30,787 nt of DNA from a virus: the IMG/VR virus record IMGVR_UViG_3300032322_001369, positions 1-30,787 of that record, one strand, 5' to 3'. Every line of letters starts with the position of its first letter. The stretch's first letter is position 1. A program made the position numbers and the translations under genes. Below, piece by piece: positions 5,213 to 29,890 of this stretch. The notes below the pieces were generated by a model. It had not been told where the DNA came from, did no database searches, and saw only the letters and a program-made list of their open reading frames with translations.

Positions 5213-5611
5213 ATGACAACTGCCTACGATGTAAAACATATAAAAATTCGTGCGTTACATGATGACGTGATTATCACAGATATGGATCTAGGAGAACAGG
5301 TAACTTCGGGCGGTATTGTAATTTTAAGTGATAACGGTAAAGCACACGGAGTTAAACCTAGATGGGGTAAGGTATACAAAGTAGGCCCCGAACAACAAGA
5401 CATCAAAGAAGGCCAGTGGATTCTAATAGAACATGGTCGCTGGACTCGAAAGATTAAAATCGACGACGGCGATGGCGAAAAAGAAATTCAAAAGGTTGAA
5501 GTTGCCAGCATATTAGCCATAGCTGATGAAAGGCCTAATGATGCTTACATAGGGCAAGAATTCGGTCACGGTTCGAGCACAACTATACGCCCAGAAGATT
5601 TTATAGGATAA
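5213..5611 (+). CDS. 31: GroES-like co-chaperonin (T4 gp31 type)
   Basis: A 132-aa protein, longer than bacterial GroES (about 97 aa) and close to T4 gp31 (111 aa). Residues about 10-20 (IKIRALHDDVII) match the first GroES strand. Residues about 24-46 form the mobile-loop region with GGIVI, the hydrophobic tripeptide that docks on GroEL. The segment WGKVYKVGP matches the GroES VGxG core strand. In T4, gp31 replaces host GroES so that the major capsid protein folds inside GroEL; the same role is inferred here. No GroEL gene is in the window, so it would work with host GroEL. The stop overlaps the next ATG by one base (TAATG). Confidence 0.85.
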   Translation: MTTAYDVKHIKIRALHDDVIITDMDLGEQVTSGGIVILSDNGKAHGVKPRWGKVYKVGPEQQDIKEGQWILIEHGRWTRKIKIDDGDGEKEIQKVEVASILAIADERPNDAYIGQEFGHGSSTTIRPEDFIG

Positions 5612-9262: not shown

Positions 9263-9327
9263 ACCGAACACAAACATATTTAATCCGAAGCTGATTTTAT
9301 TATAAGTTATGTTTAAGTTTTAGGCGG

Positions 9328-9335
9328 AATAAATA
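9328..9335 (+). promoter_or_regulatory. T4-type late promoter motif
   Basis: AATAAATA in the divergent gap, 16 bases before the 9351 ATG. Transcription would begin near 9341, close to the GGGAG ribosome-binding site. It matches the T4 late -10 element TATAAATA except at the first base. Confidence 0.45.
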
Positions 9336-9350
9336 CATTGGGAGAACTCC

Positions 9351-9884
9351 ATGGCAGATATAAAAGATATTATAAGCAACATAGAACAAATCTACGGTTC
9401 TAATAACAGCTTAAATTTACTCAAAGACTTCGAACGTGTAATAGACGAGCTAGATACCTATGTCTACGATAACTGGTTAGACGGACAATTAGTAGCTGGG
9501 CCAACAGAACACAGATATTTTGTAGAATGTACCTTTATGTGGCCTAAAGAAAAAATGCCTGAACCTCAAGGCGGCCTAAGATTGTTAGATTACGGGTGCA
9601 AAGTTAAATTTGCAGAATCAACTCTAAAAAAAGTAAGAAAAATTAAAACTCCAGACGATATCCGTCCAGGAACACGAAAAGGTAAAATCGATATCGAAGA
9701 TATCTGGTTAGTTAAAATTTTGATGCCTAAAAAATTAATGCAAGATATCAATCGTGGATACAAGAATTTAGACAAAAATAAAGTAGAAGATATCATAAAT
9801 CAATTCGGTGCTGTTAATGCTAACGTTGATGCATCGGAAACACAAGTACAGGATCAAACTAATGCAGAACAACCAGCAGCTTAA
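9351..9884 (+). CDS. Conserved T4-like marine phage protein, function unknown
   Basis: A 177-aa protein with a GGGAG site 5 bases before the ATG. It begins MADIKDIISNIEQIYG. A central region has FERVIDELDTYVYDNWLDG and YFVECTFMWP followed by a Gly/Pro-rich turn, a pattern I recall from hypothetical proteins conserved in T4-like marine myoviruses. The C-terminal 25 residues are Gln/Ala/Asn-rich and probably disordered. It overlaps the next gene by 23 bases. The pairing with the 9862 gene suggests a joint function, but none can be named. Confidence 0.65.
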   Translation: MADIKDIISNIEQIYGSNNSLNLLKDFERVIDELDTYVYDNWLDGQLVAGPTEHRYFVECTFMWPKEKMPEPQGGLRLLDYGCKVKFAESTLKKVRKIKTPDDIRPGTRKGKIDIEDIWLVKILMPKKLMQDINRGYKNLDKNKVEDIINQFGAVNANVDASETQVQDQTNAEQPAA

Positions 9885-10608
9885 TGAGGGATTGAGATCA
9901 GAAGATCTTCTTAATCTAGTTCATCCTATTTTCGATATAGATACCTATAGATCAAAAATGGGGGAGGATCGAGACGTTTGTGTTCTTTCTTTCAAGGTTA
10001 AAGATAGAGCACCGGCAAAGGACCTAATGGAATTTGTCGAGAAAGGTTATTCTTTTGTTTTAGATGCTGATGTTAGCTCTGGCGAAAATGACCAGGGAGA
10101 ATATTTTGTTTTCATAGAACTTTCAAGAAACGAAAAGTTATCAGAAAACATAAAAGAACTTACCCACGGTATCAATAAACTTACAGGCAATGACAGATGG
10201 AAATTCAAATATCACAAAGATTCTTCTGTACATGAGGCCAATCAAGAAATGTTAAGAAAGATTGTTCCGGAAACTCCAATGGCTTACGAAGGTTTTATGA
10301 ATAAGGTAAAAATCGAAGGAATTAAAAAATTCTTTAACAAAACTCTTATGGATGATTTAGTTTTAGAAAATGATATCATTACAATTAAAAAACCCTTTAA
10401 TAAAATTGTCAAGTTGAAAATAATAGGCGAAGATAATACTCAAAGCATTTTAGAAAATACAGAAGATACTATTACAGTAGATCAAGGATCGACCAGCGAA
10501 GTTTTTTGGTTAACTAAAGTATTAGGGGATTACAACATTACTAAAATTGGCGAGAACTTTTTGTTTGACAACAAAGGGCAGGCCATGTTACTACAAAGGA
10601 TAGAATAA
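9862..10608 (+). CDS. Conserved T4-like marine phage protein, function unknown
   Basis: A 248-aa protein. I chose ATG 9862 (MQNNQQLNEGLRSEDLLNLV) over an upstream in-frame ATG at 9808 because it reduces the overlap with the previous gene to 23 bases and gives an ordinary N-terminus. Features include FDIDTYRSKMGEDRDVCVLS, a helix with DLMEFVEKGYSFVLDADVS, and a beta-rich C-terminal half. The pattern is familiar from marine T4-like phages as a paired hypothetical. The TAATG stop/start overlap couples it to the endolysin gene. Confidence 0.65.
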   Translation: MQNNQQLNEGLRSEDLLNLVHPIFDIDTYRSKMGEDRDVCVLSFKVKDRAPAKDLMEFVEKGYSFVLDADVSSGENDQGEYFVFIELSRNEKLSENIKELTHGINKLTGNDRWKFKYHKDSSVHEANQEMLRKIVPETPMAYEGFMNKVKIEGIKKFFNKTLMDDLVLENDIITIKKPFNKIVKLKIIGEDNTQSILENTEDTITVDQGSTSEVFWLTKVLGDYNITKIGENFLFDNKGQAMLLQRIE

Positions 10609-13528: not shown

Positions 13529-13557
13529 AATAGGACTATTTTTATAGTCCTATTTTT
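13529..13557 (+). terminator. Rho-independent terminator ending the lysis/envelope block
   Basis: AATAGGACTAT (13529-13539) pairs perfectly with ATAGTCCTATT (13544-13554) across a TTTT loop, followed by more T. An 11-bp stem with a U-tract is a strong intrinsic terminator. The next gene's ATG begins at 13558, directly after it. Confidence 0.9.
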
Positions 13558-14175
13558 ATGATCGCAGAAATTATTCCAATCTTTCCTACAGCAATTTATA
13601 AAGTTAAACTACGATCTCTCACTGTAGACGAAGAAGATGTAATAAGAACATCTAAAGTTCTTCCTAAAGAATTAGGAAACAGGACTTCGGCAAAGTCAAA
13701 CATTTTAGAAAATGATAAATTACAAGATTTAAAAAAAATATTTTCCGATAATATAAAGGTATATGCTGAAGAAATAATAAAGACTGATTGCGAATTATAT
13801 ATTACAAATTCTTGGAAGAACGAAAATCATTCAGGAGAACCGCATCTATTACATAATCACACTAACAGTATTATATCCGGCTGTTATTACGTAGACGTAG
13901 AAAATTCAGAAAATTCAATTTCCTTTCATAGAATGATGTTGCCATTTACTATGAATTTTAAAAGTAAAAAATATACCGAATTTAATTCAACAGAATGGAC
14001 TATTCCTATTGAAAATAATATGCTAATATTATTTCCATCTTCTTTGTATCATCAGGTAAGAATTAATCAAACAAATCATATAAGAACTAGTGTTGCATTT
14101 AATACGTTTGTCAAGGGAGGTTTCGACACTGAAACACAACTTGTAAATAATAATACTGCGATTTTTAAAATTTAA
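13558..14175 (+). CDS. 2OG-Fe(II) oxygenase family protein (first of three)
   Basis: A 205-aa protein. The N-terminus MIAEIIPIFPTAIYKV is typical of phage 2OG-Fe(II) oxygenases. Likely iron ligands are His99 and His101 (LHNHTNSIISGCYYV) and His165 (SLYHQV); Arg176 (HIRTSVAF) would bind 2-oxoglutarate. It resembles the 29198 product along its whole length. Substrate unknown; phage members may hydroxylate protein, nucleic acid or small molecules. The ATG lies right after a terminator with no Shine-Dalgarno, so it is either read from leaking transcripts or from an unseen start. This placement suggests an independently acquired gene. Confidence 0.8.
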   Translation: MIAEIIPIFPTAIYKVKLRSLTVDEEDVIRTSKVLPKELGNRTSAKSNILENDKLQDLKKIFSDNIKVYAEEIIKTDCELYITNSWKNENHSGEPHLLHNHTNSIISGCYYVDVENSENSISFHRMMLPFTMNFKSKKYTEFNSTEWTIPIENNMLILFPSSLYHQVRINQTNHIRTSVAFNTFVKGGFDTETQLVNNNTAIFKI

Positions 14176-14192
14176 ATTAGCGAATTACTATC

Positions 14193-15032
14193 ATGAATTA
14201 TTACGAAACATTAGGATTAAGACACGGGGCTGCTGATAACGAAATAAAAAAAGCATACCGAAGTTTAGCAATGAAACATCATCCGGACCGAGGTGGTGAT
14301 GAAAAAAAATTCAAAGAAATCGAAGAGGCATACAGAACTCTTAGCGATCCCGAGAAGAAGAGATTAGTAGACGCAGGAATTGACCCCAATTCTCAAGGCC
14401 AAGGTTCTACCTGGAATCAAGGACCTTTCGAATTTCATTTTGGGTCGGATAACATACACGATATTTTTAATCAATTCGGATTCGGTTTTAATCAAAGACC
14501 GATGAGAAGAAATAAATCTTTGAATATTACTATAGACATCACATTGGAAGATGTGTTATTAGGAAAAGAAATTAATGCAGAAGTAGGAATACCAGGTGGC
14601 AGAAAAAAAGTAATTAATATACAAATACCTCCCGGTATAGAAAACAATCAACAAATAAAATATTCTGGAATGGGGGACGATTCCATTCCAGATCTAAGAG
14701 CAGGCGATTTAATTGTTAATATAAGAGTCAAACCACATCCTGTTTTTAGAAGAGAAGGAGATGCATTAATTATTGAAAAAAGTATTAGTGTTTGGGATGC
14801 TATTCTCGGAACAAATTTAAATGTTTCAACTATAGACAATAAAGTAATTACAATAACCATTCCACCGGGAACACAGCCAGAAACTGTTCTGAGCTGCAGA
14901 GGCGAAGGTATACCTAATATGCGAACAAGACAACGAGGGAACTTATTAATGAAAATAAAAATAGATATTCCAAGAAATCTCGGAGATGCAGAAAAAAAAT
15001 TACTGGAAACAATAAGAAAAAATGGAATTTAA
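14193..15032 (+). CDS. dnaJ: DnaJ/CbpA-type J-domain co-chaperone
   Basis: A 279-aa protein. Residues 1-60 form a J domain with YYETLGL and the HPD motif at 30-32, required to stimulate DnaK ATPase. A Gly/Phe-containing linker (residues about 70-100) and two C-terminal peptide-binding domains follow, including IPPGIENNQQIKYSGMGDD and IPPGTQPETVLSCRGEG. No CxxCxGxG zinc repeats are present, so it is a type B protein like CbpA. It would steer host DnaK to chosen substrates. The last 11 bases overlap the deformylase gene. Confidence 0.92.
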   Translation: MNYYETLGLRHGAADNEIKKAYRSLAMKHHPDRGGDEKKFKEIEEAYRTLSDPEKKRLVDAGIDPNSQGQGSTWNQGPFEFHFGSDNIHDIFNQFGFGFNQRPMRRNKSLNITIDITLEDVLLGKEINAEVGIPGGRKKVINIQIPPGIENNQQIKYSGMGDDSIPDLRAGDLIVNIRVKPHPVFRREGDALIIEKSISVWDAILGTNLNVSTIDNKVITITIPPGTQPETVLSCRGEGIPNMRTRQRGNLLMKIKIDIPRNLGDAEKKLLETIRKNGI

Positions 15033-15516
15033 TCTAGGGGCACATAAAAGCCTAATTGAAAAAAGCACAGATTGGGATTTTAATTTAGATGAGGATCCTG
15101 AACTAGTCGAAAAGCATATGTGCGAATTTATGTTAGCCAATAATGGCATAGGACTTGCGGCCAATCAAATAAACATTACTAAAAGAGTATTTGTTATAGG
15201 CAGCAATAACATCCCAGGATTTCCGCAACCATTTGCTGTATTCAACCCTAAGATTCTAGAAGTTAGCAAAGAAGAGATATCAGACAAAGAAGGATGTTTG
15301 AGCTATCCTGGTCTGTTTTTAATGATAAAAAGACCAGAATGGATCATTGCTGAATATCAAGACAGCAAAGGAAATGTTAAAGAAATCAAAGTAGACGGTT
15401 ATCTGTCAAAATGTTTTCAGCACGAATACGATCATCTAGATGGCATTTGTTTCGTTGACAAAGTATCTCAATTAAAGTTACAATTAGCTATGAAGAAATT
15501 AAGGAAATTTAAATAA
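15022..15516 (+). CDS. def: Peptide deformylase
   Basis: A 164-aa protein (bacterial enzymes about 170 aa). All three signature motifs are intact: GIGLAANQ (42-49), EGCLS (90-94) with metal ligand Cys92, and HEYDH (134-138) with His134, Glu135 and His138. It removes the formyl group from new protein N-termini. Phage deformylases are known in marine T4-like phages, where they are proposed to speed processing of particular proteins. Here it sits between dnaJ and clpA with overlaps on both sides (11 bases and 1 base), so the three are cotranslated. Confidence 0.95.
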   Translation: MEFNLGAHKSLIEKSTDWDFNLDEDPELVEKHMCEFMLANNGIGLAANQINITKRVFVIGSNNIPGFPQPFAVFNPKILEVSKEEISDKEGCLSYPGLFLMIKRPEWIIAEYQDSKGNVKEIKVDGYLSKCFQHEYDHLDGICFVDKVSQLKLQLAMKKLRKFK

Positions 15517-17837
15517 TGATAGAACCGAGTAAGAGCCTTCAAAGTGTGTTCGAAACTGCTATTGATTTAGCTAAATCAAATCAGCACGAATATATAACAC
15601 TAGAACATCTTGTCTATAGTATAATGTTAGATGAAAATTCCTACAATCATCTAGAGCAATTTGGTGCTGACGTTAATTTTATTAAAAACAATCTAGAAAA
15701 TTATGTTATTAATAATCTTAATGACATTAAAACTGAAGACGAAAATCTAAGACCTAAAAAAACCAATTCAGTTGAAAGAGTACTGAACAGATGTTTCTCG
15801 CAGGTATTATTCAGCGGGAGACAAAAAATTGAAATTATTGACGTTATTCTAAGTATTCTTAATGAAAAAAATTCCTTTGCATTTTATTTTTTAAGCAAAG
15901 GCGGAGTTAGCAAAGAAAAATTCATCCAACACTTTCATGATCAACTTACAGGTGATGATGAAGAAAATGACAACGAGAACGCCGTAGTGAATCCAAATCA
16001 AATAGAAAAGATTATCAATCAATTTTGTACTAATTTAAGCCTATTAGCTAAACAACGTAAAATAGATCCTGTGATCGGTCGTGACGAAGAATTAGAAAAA
16101 ATCCAATTAATCCTAGCACGTAGAAACAAGTGCAATGTATTGATGGTCGGAGAGCCAGGTGTTGGTAAGACTGCTATCGCTGAAGGCCTTGCTAGAAAAA
16201 TAGTCGAAAAGAAAGTTCCTAAATTTATCCAAGATCATCAAGTATATACTTTAGATATTAGTTCTCTGTTAGCGGGTTCAAAGTATCGTGGCGATTTTGA
16301 AGAACGTATAAAAGCTGTGTTAACTGCATTAGAGAGAAAAGGCAAAATTATTCTTTTCATCGATGAAGCACATATGATGCAAGGTGCAGGTGCTGCTAAT
16401 CAATCAAGCAACGACCTAGCAAATATTCTTAAGCCAGTATTAACTAAAGGTGTGATCAAACTAATCGCATCAACTACTTGGGAAGAATATCGTAAACACT
16501 TCGAAAAAGATCGTGCATTGATGCGTCGATTCCAACGTGTTACTGTTGACGAACCAACTAGCGAAGTCACTGTTAAGATCATCAAGGGTATCAAGAAGTA
16601 CTACGAAAAGCATCATAATGTAAAAATTACAGAAGCAGCTATCGAGCAAGCAGTTAAGCTATCTGTGAAATATATGTCAGATAAAAAACTTCCGGATAAA
16701 GCCATCGATATCATCGATTGCGCATCTGCTAGATATAAACTTCGAGACGACGAAGCTATGGAAGGTGTTGAACAGATCGTTGACGTAGAACAAGTAACCT
16801 ACGAACTCAGCAAGATGATTAATATGCCGTTGGAAACTGTAGCTCAGAAAGAAAGTAAAAATCTTGCTGACCTGGAATCAGGAATGAAGGAAGTTGTTTA
16901 TGGTCAAGACGGTGCTGTAGATAATTTACTGGATAAAATTTTCGTAGCTCAGGCTGGTATGAAGTTACCTAATAAACCTATCGGTTGCTTCTTATTCGCA
17001 GGGCCTACAGGTTGTGGTAAAACAGAAACTGCTAAACAACTAAGTTTAAAAATGGGGTTACCGTTGATTAGATTTGATATGAGCGAATATCAAGAAAAAC
17101 ACAGCGTTGCTAAACTTATCGGGGCTCCTCCAGGTTATGTAGGCTATGAAGATAATGCTGGACAACTTATAACAAAATTACAAGAAACACCAAATTGTGT
17201 TTTGCTTTTAGACGAAATTGAAAAAGCCCATCCAGATGTTACTAACATTCTATTACAGTTTATGGATAACGGTTTTGTCACGGGTAGTAACGGTAAAGTC
17301 GCCGATGGAAGAAATACCATCTTAATTATGACCAGCAACTTAGGTGCTGCTGATAATGAGAGGAATACTATCGGGTTCGGAGATTTGTCTAGGGAAGGCG
17401 AGGATGATAAAGCAGTTAAAAAATTCTTCGCTCCCGAATTCCGTAATCGTTTAGATGCAACTATTAAGTTTACAAAGCTATCGCAAGAAACTGTACGTAA
17501 GATTGTTGATAAGTTTATCTCTGATCTAAATCAACAGGTTAAAGAAAAGAACATCGAGATCATTGCCGATCAATCTGTAATAAGTTGGCTAGCAGAAAAG
17601 GGTTACGACAGTAAAATGGGTGCAAGACCGTTAGCAAGACTGATCGATAATAAAATTAAATCTCCGTTAAGTAGACAGGTGCTGTTCGGCGAACTAAAGG
17701 AAGGCGGAAAAGCACTTATGAATTTAACCGGGGATGAAATTTCTTTTACATTTATTAAAAAAGAAGTAGTGCTAACTAAAGAACAGCGTAAGGCATTAAA
17801 GAGGGGCGAACCTTTACCCTTACTAGAAAATGGTTAA
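15516..17837 (+). CDS. clpA: ClpA-like AAA+ unfoldase with ClpP-docking IGF loop
   Basis: A 773-aa protein matching ClpA in length and order. It has a Clp N domain (1-145), an acidic linker, then AAA1 with Walker A GEPGVGKT (212-219) and Walker B ILFIDEAH (279-286), and AAA2 with Walker A GPTGCGKT (496-503) and Walker B LLLDEIEK (563-570). There is no ClpB-type middle coiled coil. Residues 619-621 read IGF, at the position of the ClpA IGL loop that docks on ClpP. It would therefore feed proteins to host ClpP; no phage clpP is in the window. It starts on the deformylase stop codon. Confidence 0.92.
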
Positions 17838-18504
17838 AATAAAATATACAAATAGAAAATTCTATAATAAATGGGTATACAAGGTATCTTTATTGATACC
17901 TGGTGCATCTGTAATGAGAATAAATTCTATTGAAAAATTAATAGACTTTGACAAAGAACTAATGCCCGAAGGGAACGGTTATAGGCAGAGCATACTTGCC
18001 AAGGCCTATGGTAATAAATCTTACATCAGTAGCCTGTCCCGTATTTTAAATTCGAATCACAAAGACTCCTACGCTAAAAGAATAGAGAGCAATAGAATCG
18101 ACATATACACAAACGATAAAAATATATGCGATACTATTGAAAAAGATCTATCAGATAAAATTGTCTATATTTCAGTTCCCGATAATAATCAATTAGATAT
18201 TTTAAACACAGGGTTAATACCCGTGCAAAAACTACCACACGGATGTTACAAATATAAAGTTTATCTACTACCTCATAAATTTAAAAATGATATCCCTGCT
18301 AAAAACAAATATCTATCTTGGTTAGACCAGCAAAGCCCTAAAATCTTAATATCTGAAAAAGTTAAAAAATGGTTTATAGATACTAATTGGAATTGGGATC
18401 GTAGATACATATACGTACAAGACGAAAACACGTTGCTACTGCTGAAATTGAGATCTAGCGAATCAATGGGCAGAGTATACGAATACAGCATAGTCGATAA
18501 ATAA
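17830..18504 (+). CDS. Unknown 224-aa protein at the end of the chaperone operon
   Basis: A 224-aa protein overlapping clpA by 8 bases, so it is translated with it. It begins [20 protein letters not shown] and has an even mix of predicted strands and helices, high Lys/Tyr/Asn/Ile, and segments HGCYKYKVYLLPHKF and NWNWDRRYIYVQDENTLLLL. No catalytic motif, membrane segment or known fold is recognised. Its place after dnaJ-def-clpA makes it a candidate substrate adaptor or partner of that module; this is only a context argument. Confidence 0.6.
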   Translation: MVKIKYTNRKFYNKWVYKVSLLIPGASVMRINSIEKLIDFDKELMPEGNGYRQSILAKAYGNKSYISSLSRILNSNHKDSYAKRIESNRIDIYTNDKNICDTIEKDLSDKIVYISVPDNNQLDILNTGLIPVQKLPHGCYKYKVYLLPHKFKNDIPAKNKYLSWLDQQSPKILISEKVKKWFIDTNWNWDRRYIYVQDENTLLLLKLRSSESMGRVYEYSIVDK

Positions 18505-18507
18505 TAG

Positions 18508-18882
18508 ATGTCCAACGAAAACACTATTTTATTGTCGTCTACATCTATCGAAACCTGGGATGGTACTTCAGGTATAGAATATCAATACAGCGATAAACAA
18601 AAGGCAGCAGGATATCACAAAAAATCCTCAGCTCTGCATACTGTCCTCTTTGAATTTGATAACTTTCTAGGCGATGTTAAAATACAGGCAACATTGGAAA
18701 CACACCCTTCTTCCGATGACTGGTTCGATATAGAGTACGACAATGGATCGGAAATACAGGCCTTAGACAGCACTCTGTTAATAACATCCGAAACCCGCAA
18801 TTTTACCGGTAATTTCGTATGGGTGCGAGCTGCATATAGACTGATGCAGGGCACTATCACACAAATTAGATATACTTACTAA
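18508..18882 (+). CDS. Beta-rich protein, possible virion component
   Basis: A 124-aa protein three bases after the previous stop. It is Thr/Ser/Asp-rich with alternating strands, for example HTVLFEFDNFLGDVKIQATL and NFVWVRAAYR. A small jelly-roll or Ig-like fold is plausible, as in head decoration or tail accessory proteins. No Cys, signal or membrane segment is present. The family is not recognised; virion association is a guess from composition. Confidence 0.5.
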   Translation: MSNENTILLSSTSIETWDGTSGIEYQYSDKQKAAGYHKKSSALHTVLFEFDNFLGDVKIQATLETHPSSDDWFDIEYDNGSEIQALDSTLLITSETRNFTGNFVWVRAAYRLMQGTITQIRYTY

Positions 18883-18902: not shown

Positions 18903-18929
18903 TAGTATCACCTTACGGAAGATACTATG
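18901..18929 (+). promoter_or_regulatory. Hairpin over the start codon of the 18927 gene
   Basis: ATAGTATC (18902-18909) pairs perfectly with GATACTAT (18921-18928), with a possible U-G pair outside; the 11-base loop holds the GGAA ribosome-binding region. The AUG at 18927 lies in the right arm. A transcript reading through from upstream would hide the start codon, while one starting at the late promoter near 18908 would lack most of the left arm and leave it open. This is the known arrangement of T4 genes such as e and soc. Confidence 0.6.
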
Positions 18930-19664
18930 AGAGACCTTTTATCTAAATTAGATGCAATTATAAACGAAGCAGAACTCAAAGACAAGGAAGATCTGCAGGC
19001 TAAACGCAAGGCCCTACAGGATCTACAAATGGATCCTACCGCTGCTAAAGATCCAGAAATTAAACAAGCAATCATTCAAAGAAAAGCCGCCCTAGAAAAA
19101 GAAGCCGAATCTAAGGGATTTTCTGAAGAGTTTAATATCGGAGACGACTTCGGAATCAGTTTTTCAGAAGATTTTGAAATTGGCGCAGAGATCGTAGGCT
19201 TTACCAATGATGGAATCGTTGTTGATTTAGACGAAACAGCATTAAACCATTTGCAAGAAAATGGTAGTATATTCCTAGACGGTGAGCTCACAGAAGGATT
19301 AAGAGACCCTAAAGACAATCCCTGTTGGAAAGGATATCATCCCGTAGGAACAAAAAAGAAAGGCGGCAAAACCGTACCCAACTGTGTTCCCAATGAAAGT
19401 ATTGAAGAAGAATCAGATGTAGACGAAGCCAAATATCAAGGCAAGGAAGTTCCCTTAGGTAAAAAATTACCAGGCGATGTTAAGAAATCAAAAGTATATG
19501 TACGCAAGCCCAACGGTAAAATCGTCAAGGTAAACTTTGGTGATAAGAAAATGCGTATTAAGAAATCTAATCCGGCACGTAGAAAATCTTTCCGTGCCCG
19601 TCATAATTGTAAAAATCCGGGGCCGCGTTGGAAAGCACGTTACTGGTCTTGCAGGAGCTGGTAA
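18927..19664 (+). CDS. Capsid-associated-type protein with T4 CTS-like N-terminus
   Basis: A 245-aa protein. The start MRDLLSKLDAIINEAELKD resembles a capsid-targeting leader, with INE-A as a possible gp21-type protease site ((L/I)xE). A helical, charged region follows, then an acidic beta segment, then NPCWKGYHPVGTKKKGGKTV and a basic C-terminus with KSFRARHNC and WKARYWSCRSW. The two C-terminal patterns recur in many marine phage proteins from memory, sometimes as separate genes, so this looks modular. Its start codon lies in a hairpin behind a late motif, suggesting strict late expression. Virion or head-internal location is inferred. Confidence 0.65.
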   Translation: MRDLLSKLDAIINEAELKDKEDLQAKRKALQDLQMDPTAAKDPEIKQAIIQRKAALEKEAESKGFSEEFNIGDDFGISFSEDFEIGAEIVGFTNDGIVVDLDETALNHLQENGSIFLDGELTEGLRDPKDNPCWKGYHPVGTKKKGGKTVPNCVPNESIEEESDVDEAKYQGKEVPLGKKLPGDVKKSKVYVRKPNGKIVKVNFGDKKMRIKKSNPARRKSFRARHNCKNPGPRWKARYWSCRSW

Positions 19665-24060: not shown

Positions 24061-24687
24061 ATGGCAACTTTTGAACCTTTTTTTAATTTTGGATATATCC
24101 AACATAAATTTACCGAGGACGAACTTCGTCCGTTGATCGCAGAAGTAAAAGAGATAAGTCAAGATTTTTCTAAAGCTGTTCCAGCTAATTCTCAGTTAGT
24201 AGGAAATATAAGAAATGAGTTTAGTTTGTTTAAATCTAAAGAACATTTAGAAAAATTATTATTTCCTTTTATCGATGCATACGAAAACAATTATAATTAT
24301 TTTAAAACTGTCGAAGTATTAACATCTAATCTTCCATTCACTTTAGATTCGGTATGGGTAAATTTTCAAAAAAAATATGAATTTAATCCTATGCATAATC
24401 ATTCCGGAGTAATGTCGTTTGTTATATGGATTAAAATTCCTTATTCTAGAGAATCGGAATATAAATTTGCACCAGGTTTCGCTAGCACACGAAACTGTTC
24501 AGGATCATTTGAATTTCAATTTACAAACATTCTAGGTCAAATAGGCGGACAGCTAATAGACTTAGATCAAAATTACGAAAACACAATGATAATGTTTCCT
24601 TCTAAACTAAATCATTGTGTATATCCGTTTTTTTCATCAGATGAATATAGGATAAGTGTAGCAGGAAATTTTTATTTAAAGAGTTGA
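24061..24687 (+). CDS. 2OG-Fe(II) oxygenase-like protein (second of three)
   Basis: A 208-aa protein. Likely ligands are His112 and His114 (NPMHNHSGVMSFVIWI), His185 (KLNHCVYPF) and Arg197 (EYRISVAGNF). It is more distant from the other two copies and lacks their IPxFP start. Like the first copy it lies directly behind a terminator and has no Shine-Dalgarno (ACT before the ATG). Substrate unknown. Its stop codon overlaps the -35 element of the dsbA promoter. Confidence 0.75.
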   Translation: MATFEPFFNFGYIQHKFTEDELRPLIAEVKEISQDFSKAVPANSQLVGNIRNEFSLFKSKEHLEKLLFPFIDAYENNYNYFKTVEVLTSNLPFTLDSVWVNFQKKYEFNPMHNHSGVMSFVIWIKIPYSRESEYKFAPGFASTRNCSGSFEFQFTNILGQIGGQLIDLDQNYENTMIMFPSKLNHCVYPFFSSDEYRISVAGNFYLKS

Positions 24688-28833: not shown

Positions 28834-29201
28834 TGATTAATTCTGTAAACAGTTCTAGCAAACATCTATATGCCGCAGGGGGTAGTTCTCTACCCTATGT
28901 GAGCTACAATCCTAGCAATCCTGCACAAGGTATGCTGCGATTAAATGGCAGTGATATGGAAGTGTTTGATGGTAATCAGTGGATGAAGATTTATGCTAGT
29001 TCTGCAAACGTAGGCCTAAATAGTGAAGCTGAAAGTGCTATCGATTGGGCTATTAAAAGACAGCAGCAAGAAAAAGAATGGTACGAATTAGCCTCTTCAA
29101 ATGAATCAGTTCGTATCGCACTAGAACAGTTAGAACAGTCGCGAACAAGAGTAGAACTTACAGCAATTTTAGCGAGATCTGAACAAGTACACCCACTATG
29201 A
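28833..29201 (+). CDS. Conserved T4-like marine phage protein, possibly virion-associated
   Basis: A 122-aa protein. I use ATG 28833, overlapping the gp45 stop (TGATG). The first half is Ser/Asn/Gly-rich with SYNPSNPAQGMLRLNGSDME and VFDGNQWMKI, a pattern seen at the ends of phage structural proteins. The second half is helical (SAIDWAIKRQQQEKEW). I recall relatives in marine T4-like phages labelled hypothetical. It overlaps the third oxygenase gene by 4 bases. Confidence 0.6.
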   Translation: MINSVNSSSKHLYAAGGSSLPYVSYNPSNPAQGMLRLNGSDMEVFDGNQWMKIYASSANVGLNSEAESAIDWAIKRQQQEKEWYELASSNESVRIALEQLEQSRTRVELTAILARSEQVHPL

Positions 29202-29890
29202 CAAGTAAATTTGATGTTATCCCATTATTTCCTTCTCCTTTATATGTTACAGAAATAGAAGGTTTCACCGATGACGAATTAAAATTTGTTCATAGAACTG
29301 ATCTATATTCAAAATATGAAAATACAGATGGTATTCTTGTAGGATCAGATAGGTTTGATATCTTACAATCACCAGAATTACATAGAATAAAATCCTTTAT
29401 AAAACATCATCTACAGAATTATGCTACTGATGTAATGTGTGTTGAAAACGAGCTGTTTCCAACTATAGCCTGGTTGAATAGAACAAAAAAAGGTGCATAT
29501 CATTATCAACATCATCATGTTAACAGTATTGCTAGTGGTGTTTTGTATTTTACTGAAGATCCTGCTCCTATCGAATTTCATACCGATCAAACGTGTTCCT
29601 GGTCGACTTTGAAAATATTTCCAAAAAAATATAATCAATTTAACACACACAGCAATATTATAGAAGTTAAAAAAGGCACCCTAATTATTTTTCCTTCCTA
29701 TCTAGAACATTCTGTGATTAGAACCTCTAATAATATCGATCGTATAAGCCTTTCTTTTAATTCTTGGATATCGGGAACTATAGGCCTTTTAAATCAAACA
29801 AGTTATTTGAATTTAGATTCTCCTACTTTAGAAAACGAAGAAAAAGATAATCTAAATATTCTAAAAGAAAGAAAAAAATTCCTTGACTAA
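29198..29890 (+). CDS. 2OG-Fe(II) oxygenase family protein (third of three)
   Basis: A 230-aa protein closely related to the 13558 product: the N-terminus has VIPLFPSPLYVTE (IIPIFPTAIYKV there), and the core has QHHHVNSIASGVLYF. Likely ligands are His105 and His107, His171 (YLEHSV) and Arg182 (DRISLSFN). It has an extra charged C-terminal tail of about 25 residues. No Shine-Dalgarno is visible; it overlaps the previous gene by 4 bases. The sigma70-type promoter for the dpdA-like gene begins inside its last codons. Confidence 0.8.
   Translation: MTSKFDVIPLFPSPLYVTEIEGFTDDELKFVHRTDLYSKYENTDGILVGSDRFDILQSPELHRIKSFIKHHLQNYATDVMCVENELFPTIAWLNRTKKGAYHYQHHHVNSIASGVLYFTEDPAPIEFHTDQTCSWSTLKIFPKKYNQFNTHSNIIEVKKGTLIIFPSYLEHSVIRTSNNIDRISLSFNSWISGTIGLLNQTSYLNLDSPTLENEEKDNLNILKERKKFLD

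Follow-up and report, generated by a model that had tools for sequence, protein, structure and literature searches.

The window analyzed here is a 30,787-nucleotide (nt), or 30.8-kb, virus record (IMGVR_UViG_3300032322_001369) with T4-like gene matches, including clamp loader, PhoH, endolysin, DNA polymerase, baseplate wedge, and tail fibre. It carries a compact module of four genes (Table 1): dnaJ, encoding a J protein; def, encoding a peptide deformylase; clpA, encoding a ClpA-like AAA+ unfoldase; and an orphan gene. The module is probably an early-type unit through which a T4-like lineage of aquatic phages takes over proteostasis in its host, and it suggests that a large group of uncultured aquatic tailed phages retools host protein quality control soon after infection. 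We favor this reading for several reasons. Both dnaJ and clpA are universal in a sample of loci drawn independently of the module, and their order is partly common to isolated phages. A sigma70 consensus precedes dnaJ in most relatives, a further promoter lies within def, and a late promoter is found only after the orphan. The ClpP loop and the Walker, pore, HPD, and deformylase motifs are intact, some long contigs contain matches to ClpP and DnaK, and the Rki protein of phage RB43 offers a precedent (PMC3486835). A sequence-only reading had described four open reading frames (ORFs) overlapping by 11, 1, and 8 nt; the ORFs and overlaps are exactly so, and all four ORFs lie on the plus strand and look intact.

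Searches of IMG/VR with the orphan, ClpA, and DnaJ proteins yielded 168 loci in 107 clusters (L numbers below are labels of relatives' loci or contigs). The order dnaJ-def-clpA-orphan-structural gene recurs in ~100 contig clusters, and the 11-nt overlap of dnaJ and def is found in 53 of the 76 loci that have both genes. Since choosing loci by the module itself introduces bias, a second sample was anchored on phoH, which lies ~5 kb away and outside the module. This gave 56 loci with enough sequence, 54 of them nonredundant; many of these IMG/VR contigs are also in the first sample. All 54 nonredundant loci contain dnaJ and clpA, and 45 contain def. The orphan was detectable in 49, and a divergent copy found on reading in L333 brings the count to 50, with absence in 4. 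Among 79 further orphan loci, a structural gene comes next in every one and clpA stands directly before the orphan in 77; of the two exceptions, one is at a contig edge and the other has a clpA whose frame is broken. In the L150 and L134 contigs, clpA is split into two overlapping frames, by sequencing error or a real frameshift. The recurrence across clusters, the shared overlap, and the universal presence of dnaJ and clpA in the phoH sample indicate that the four-gene order is not a product of chance. Nor is it unique to the window genome, being found in IMG/VR loci and in part in isolates. In the isolates 121Q, Vibrio 2.275.O, SCTP-2, and XaC1, no dnaJ lies next to clpA.

The stable core of the module is dnaJ, clpA, and the orphan, with def as a repeatedly lost passenger. 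The deformylase gene is missing from 22 of 98 loci, and its distribution takes at least 14 changes on the clpA tree versus 3 for the presence of the orphan. Six contigs without def (50 to 327 kb), which may be incomplete, were searched whole and gave no deformylase elsewhere. The enzyme thus appears dispensable, which trims the earlier proposal that the module is aimed at DnaK, nascent chains, and ClpP all at once: the compact module is conserved, but its nascent-chain arm is optional. Could such a neighborhood have been kept by common descent, without functional linkage? All loci belong to one related lineage, and T4-like phages generally keep gene order. Even so, we regard this as very improbable, as the order is kept while orphan identity drops to ~20 to 25%, promoter signals bound the unit, and the dnaJ-clpA order is also found in PA5oct, Atu_ph07, and Phosso, whose ClpA proteins are only 40 to 43% identical to that of the window. 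A literature search, which covered few subscription papers, found no description of the combined module.

What is new here, besides the order, is a set of putative transcription-unit signals: a dnaJ promoter, a promoter internal to def, and a late promoter at the orphan's stop codon. A sigma70 consensus matching at least 11 of 12 positions lies upstream of dnaJ in 65 of 95 relatives, compared to 3 of 475 shuffled sequences. It most often ends 6 nt before the start codon, and the message may therefore be leaderless. In 44 of the 95 relatives, a -35-like TTGA sits in or at the loop of the upstream gene's terminator (e.g., AAAGGACTG-CTTGACA-CAGTCCTTTTTTT), and such terminator-promoter fusions are seen in many relatives, among them L008, L114, and L127. 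In a more distant clade, the hairpin is a different one (GGTATAGTATAAT...ACTATACC) and overlaps the -10 element upstream of dnaJ. In the window, the best promoter score upstream of dnaJ is 8/12; an inserted oxygenase gene, which no locus but the window and L030 was found to have at this site, has displaced the promoter.

The second predicted promoter, for clpA, lies inside the 3' end of def and is intact in the window. Its codons and those of the clpA ribosome site are among the most synonymous-constrained of the 120 degenerate def columns tested. Within the -35 element, V145 is GTT in 98% of sequences (the median four-fold site is at 46%) and D146 is GAC, a minority codon, in 100%; the pair GTT-GAC occurs in 55 of 56 def rows, with 8 expected from codon usage. 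The -10 codons, Q154 (CAA) and L155 (TTA), are each at 100%. This constraint holds for the main clade and is lacking in the distant clade. Def-less genomes such as L140, L133, L012, L041, and L149 have 67 to 96 nt between dnaJ and clpA and keep the promoter; the remnant in L140 still encodes HLDGICLVDKVSQLELNLDIKKLRKKK, the deformylase C terminus (translation read by eye). Other def-less genomes, such as L132 and L143, have lost the whole promoter stretch. The constraint at synonymous sites and the remnants kept after the loss of def argue for an internal clpA promoter, and a promoter hidden in def that survives the loss of def would be a clean case of regulatory DNA outliving its carrier gene.

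At the downstream end, a T4-type late promoter motif (PMC2984593) usually reads CGATAAATA, 12 nt before the ATG of the next gene and overlapping the orphan's stop codon. Of 98 loci, 88 have the motif NATAAATA in the 60 nt preceding the gene that follows the orphan, and none has it in the 60 nt preceding dnaJ; clpA coding sequence totaling 240 kb contains it once. Among the four loci without an orphan, three (L295, L317, and L322) keep the late promoter at this boundary, ahead of the structural gene; in the fourth, L316, a terminator and GATAAATA come after clpA. The location of the late promoter marks the orphan as the last gene of the early-type unit, and dnaJ(-def)-clpA-orphan is predicted to form one bounded transcription unit. 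In the window as a whole, ATAAATA occurs 7 times, always on the plus strand (3633, 9329, 18497, 18896, 22348, 22604, and 25282), against 17 expected on both strands; this rarity and strand bias may be a sign of selection on late promoters.

The contrast between the two ends of the unit bears on another interpretation, that the genes form a virion-assembly chaperone set: the J protein with DnaK, as well as the ClpA ring, would act on structural proteins, folding or remodeling them, and would play no part in host takeover. Structural genes do flank the unit on both sides, folding and assembly roles for phage DnaJ and ClpA were proposed by Iyer et al. (PMC7824862), and the GroES-like co-chaperonin gene that the sequence-only reading placed elsewhere in the window is real (5213 to 5611; PHROG 931/3188). 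We nevertheless consider an assembly set unlikely, as a late promoter is absent before dnaJ and present before the next structural gene, and the ClpP-docking loop is kept. The proposal of Iyer et al. and the adjoining structural genes also weigh against early host takeover, as do three further points: a sigma70-type promoter is compatible with use throughout infection, the window's own dnaJ promoter was lost to insertion, and the function of the orphan is argued from its position only.

The key motifs of the protein products are intact, in keeping with the compact module that the first reading had outlined. Pfam recognizes the full ClpA/B architecture in the ClpA-like protein, which aligns with Escherichia coli ClpA (1ksf) over residues 12 to 745 (E 7e-198). 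Walker A and B motifs and pore loops are conserved in 107 ClpA sequences. Every uncultured relative tested has [ILV]G[FL] at the ClpP loop, which is altered only in three jumbo isolates (121Q, SIGM; Vibrio 2.275.O, SIGV; SCTP-2, SIGY). The full-length alignment (773 versus 758 amino acids [aa]) has no large insert of the kind that a ClpB-type coiled-coil M domain would make. Two AAA+ modules, an IG(F/L) loop, and no M domain place the protein in the ClpA class, and it would be expected to dock on ClpP and unfold substrates. Twelve long contigs included four with a strong ClpP match and three with a full DnaK; the Clp and J machines may therefore be completed by phage or host subunits. A lysine-rich C-terminal tail of ClpA was considered as a feature tracking the orphan and ruled out, a similar tail being present in the orphan-less L316.

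The window DnaJ matches Pfam DnaJ (1.9e-21) and DnaJ_C (2.9e-41), and its best match in the PDB is Thermus DnaJ2. The HPD motif is kept in 96 of 96 J-protein relatives, and pairs of the zinc-finger motif CxxCxG are found in 0 of 100 J proteins. With a J domain containing HPD, C-terminal domains, and no zinc finger, it is a class B (CbpA-like) J protein. The deformylase matches Pep_deformylase (3.4e-40) and contains GIGLAANQ, EGCLS, and QHEYDH; these motifs (GxGxAAxQ, EGCLS, and HExxH) are kept in 79 relatives with minor substitutions only. Ratios of nonsynonymous to synonymous substitution (dN/dS) between the window and L084 are 0.045 for dnaJ, 0.11 for def, 0.015 for clpA, and 0.046 for the orphan, values that are rough because dS is near saturation.

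The orphan appears to be a basic, two-domain ferredoxin-like protein of a new family under purifying selection. The family alignment has 89 members, which beyond the nearest kin are 19 to 49% identical to the window protein, and the isoelectric point (pI) is above 8.5 in 99% of them. No significant sequence match for the window orphan was found in Pfam, PHROGs, the PDB, or INPHARED, and a search of 84,980 species genomes with one degenerate pattern returned no homologue. Matches to DUF1548, DIS3L2, and SOS were sporadic and weak and were set aside. An AlphaFold2 model has a predicted local distance difference test (pLDDT) score of 93, and structural matches divide it into two ferredoxin-like halves. 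VIA matches reach a Z of at most 6.3 and cover single halves only; the top Foldseek matches in the PDB (human immunodeficiency virus reverse transcriptase), with template modeling (TM) scores of 0.2 to 0.3, are meaningless, and no PDB relative was found. As to an internal duplication, the alignment is limited to a 15-residue motif (hhalign P 0.009), which is suggestive. BFVD matches comprise seven uncharacterized proteins of uncultured phages and A0A2L0UZ61 of Atu_ph07. The latter is probably AUZ94826.1, judging from length and motifs, a 208-aa ORF with orphan-like motifs (9284 to 9910) more than 200 kb from clpA. Phosso gp314 resembles the C-terminal half of the orphan and lies ~100 kb from clpA. 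Both links are weak (low TM score; E 1e-5 for one genome).

Within the lineage, the orphan is tied to clpA and the early-type unit throughout, which is compatible with a dedicated adaptor that delivers substrates to phage ClpA and host ClpP, as ClpS or MecA does. The overlap with clpA, the nearly constant position after it, the presence of the orphan in most phoH-anchored loci, and strong purifying selection (dN/dS of ~0.05, a rough value) fit this idea. We rate it as somewhat unlikely, however. No ClpS or MecA chain is among the structural matches listed; the orphan co-varies no more with the ClpA N domain than with other parts; clpA persists without the orphan in 4 of 54 loci; and the orphan is the fastest-evolving protein of the set, with a mean distance of 1.64 versus 0.25 to 0.33 for the ClpA rings (~5-fold). 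In addition, Phosso and Atu_ph07 encode probable distant relatives of the orphan away from clpA, which calls for caution. The same relatives blur the view of the orphan as dependent on the other genes, which holds within the lineage, where it never occurs apart from clpA. The high pI throughout the family raises a real possibility, short of a likely one, that the orphan acts early by binding RNA or ribosomes and only shares the transcription unit. Its halves weakly match EF-G, Csy4, and ribosomal S6-type domains, but the ferredoxin-like fold is very common, the Z scores are low, and no catalytic or RNA motif was recognized. Most likely, given its position, the orphan is a factor acting with clpA, in specificity or in RNA or ribosome targeting.

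We infer the timing, partners, and function of the unit from its sequence as follows. Host RNA polymerase with the housekeeping sigma factor would transcribe dnaJ(-def)-clpA-orphan soon after entry, with the internal promoter additionally serving clpA and the orphan. The J protein would engage DnaK and the ClpA-like motor would dock on ClpP through its IGF loop, each partner being the host's or, where present, the phage's own. Together they may redirect folding and degradation so that selected proteins are removed or refolded, while the dispensable deformylase would trim nascent proteins. A bolder version, which we hold as doubtful, is that, early on, ClpP is captured by a phage ClpA-orphan complex and DnaK by the phage J protein, the orphan founding a new class of ClpA partner; if true, this would be a dedicated system for reprogramming host protein turnover. 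In large phages, chaperone and Clp genes usually appear one by one in gene lists and are loosely ascribed a helping role in assembly or stress. Here, they form a bounded unit that has early-type promoters and includes a conserved partner protein, and dnaJ and clpA are universal in the lineage sampled. The parts are ordinary, and the well-bounded assembly is unusual. It makes the role of phage ClpA and DnaJ directly testable, points to host takeover over assembly, defines a new protein family for assay, and yields a clear, testable prediction of early expression.

Table 1. Coordinates of the module and adjoining features in the window
Feature	Position	Strand	Remarks
Intrinsic terminator upstream of module	13529..13554	+	Hairpin and T tract
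2OG-Fe(II) oxygenase gene	13558..14175	+	Between terminator and dnaJ; outside conserved module
dnaJ	14193..15032	+	279 aa; J domain and C-terminal substrate domains, no zinc finger (CbpA/class B-like)
def	15022..15516	+	164 aa; peptide deformylase; optional member
Putative internal sigma70-type promoter for clpA	15455..15484	+	TTGACA-18-TACAAT; inside 3' end of def; 11/12 match
Probable Shine-Dalgarno sequence for clpA	15501..15506	+	AAGGAA; inside def; codon R161 AGG 98% conserved
clpA-like AAA+ unfoldase gene	15516..17837	+	773 aa; Clp N domain, two ATPase rings
ClpP-docking loop	17367..17381	+	TIGFG (residues 618-622); aligned with ClpA IGL
Orphan gene	17830..18504	+	224 aa; basic, pI 9.4; two ferredoxin-like halves (predicted); new family
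Putative T4-type late promoter	18496..18503	+	GATAAATA; on orphan's last codons; start of late block
Virion structural gene	18508..18882	+	Module boundary; PHROG 14467 (virion structural), PHROG 13657

Around the module, the oxygenase gene looks like a recent insertion, with the terminator on one side and dnaJ on the other. It is one of three PHROG 81 2OG-Fe(II) oxygenase genes in this 31-kb fragment, the others being at 24061 to 24687 and 29198 to 29890. The PA5oct homologue of the structural gene that bounds the module is annotated as structural by electrospray ionization-tandem mass spectrometry (ESI-MS/MS). Several PHROGs match the C-terminal part of the protein encoded after that gene (18927 to 19664), and relatives of this protein occur in at least two places in many loci.

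Among known systems, Sinorhizobium phage Phosso comes close: its genes 193 to 195 encode a DnaJ-like protein, a peptide deformylase, and a Clp ATPase in the same order and orientation as in the window, with identities of 30% for DnaJ, 41% for the deformylase, and 43% for ClpA. Unlike the window, Phosso has no orphan after clpA, its distant orphan relative being a single-domain protein encoded elsewhere. In Pseudomonas phage PA5oct, EST35_0294 to EST35_0299 (phoH, structural, hypothetical, DnaJ, ClpA, structural) follow the order of the uncultured loci, and clpA is likewise followed by a terminator and then GATAAATA, but both the deformylase and the orphan are absent. Agrobacterium phage Atu_ph07 also has adjacent dnaJ and clpA genes (gp293 and gp292 [PMC6102473]), with no deformylase between them; its protein with the orphan-like predicted fold is encoded far from clpA. 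The deformylases of cyanophages and pelagimyophages have the same standard motifs as that of the window. Their genes lie in a DNA metabolism operon or with photosystem genes (PMC7029224), unlike the window def, which is lodged between dnaJ and clpA. E. coli ClpA (PDB 1ksf/6w1z) shares the ATPase rings, pore loops, and ClpP loop over a full-length alignment; by contrast, the N domain has diverged in ClpA of the window lineage, and the C-terminal tail is specific to that lineage. Finally, RB43, a T4-related phage, makes its J protein Rki early, and Rki binds DnaK and helps phage growth (PMC3486835). The window protein is likewise a J protein of a T4-related phage, and, unlike Rki, it has C-terminal substrate domains and is encoded by a gene coupled to clpA.

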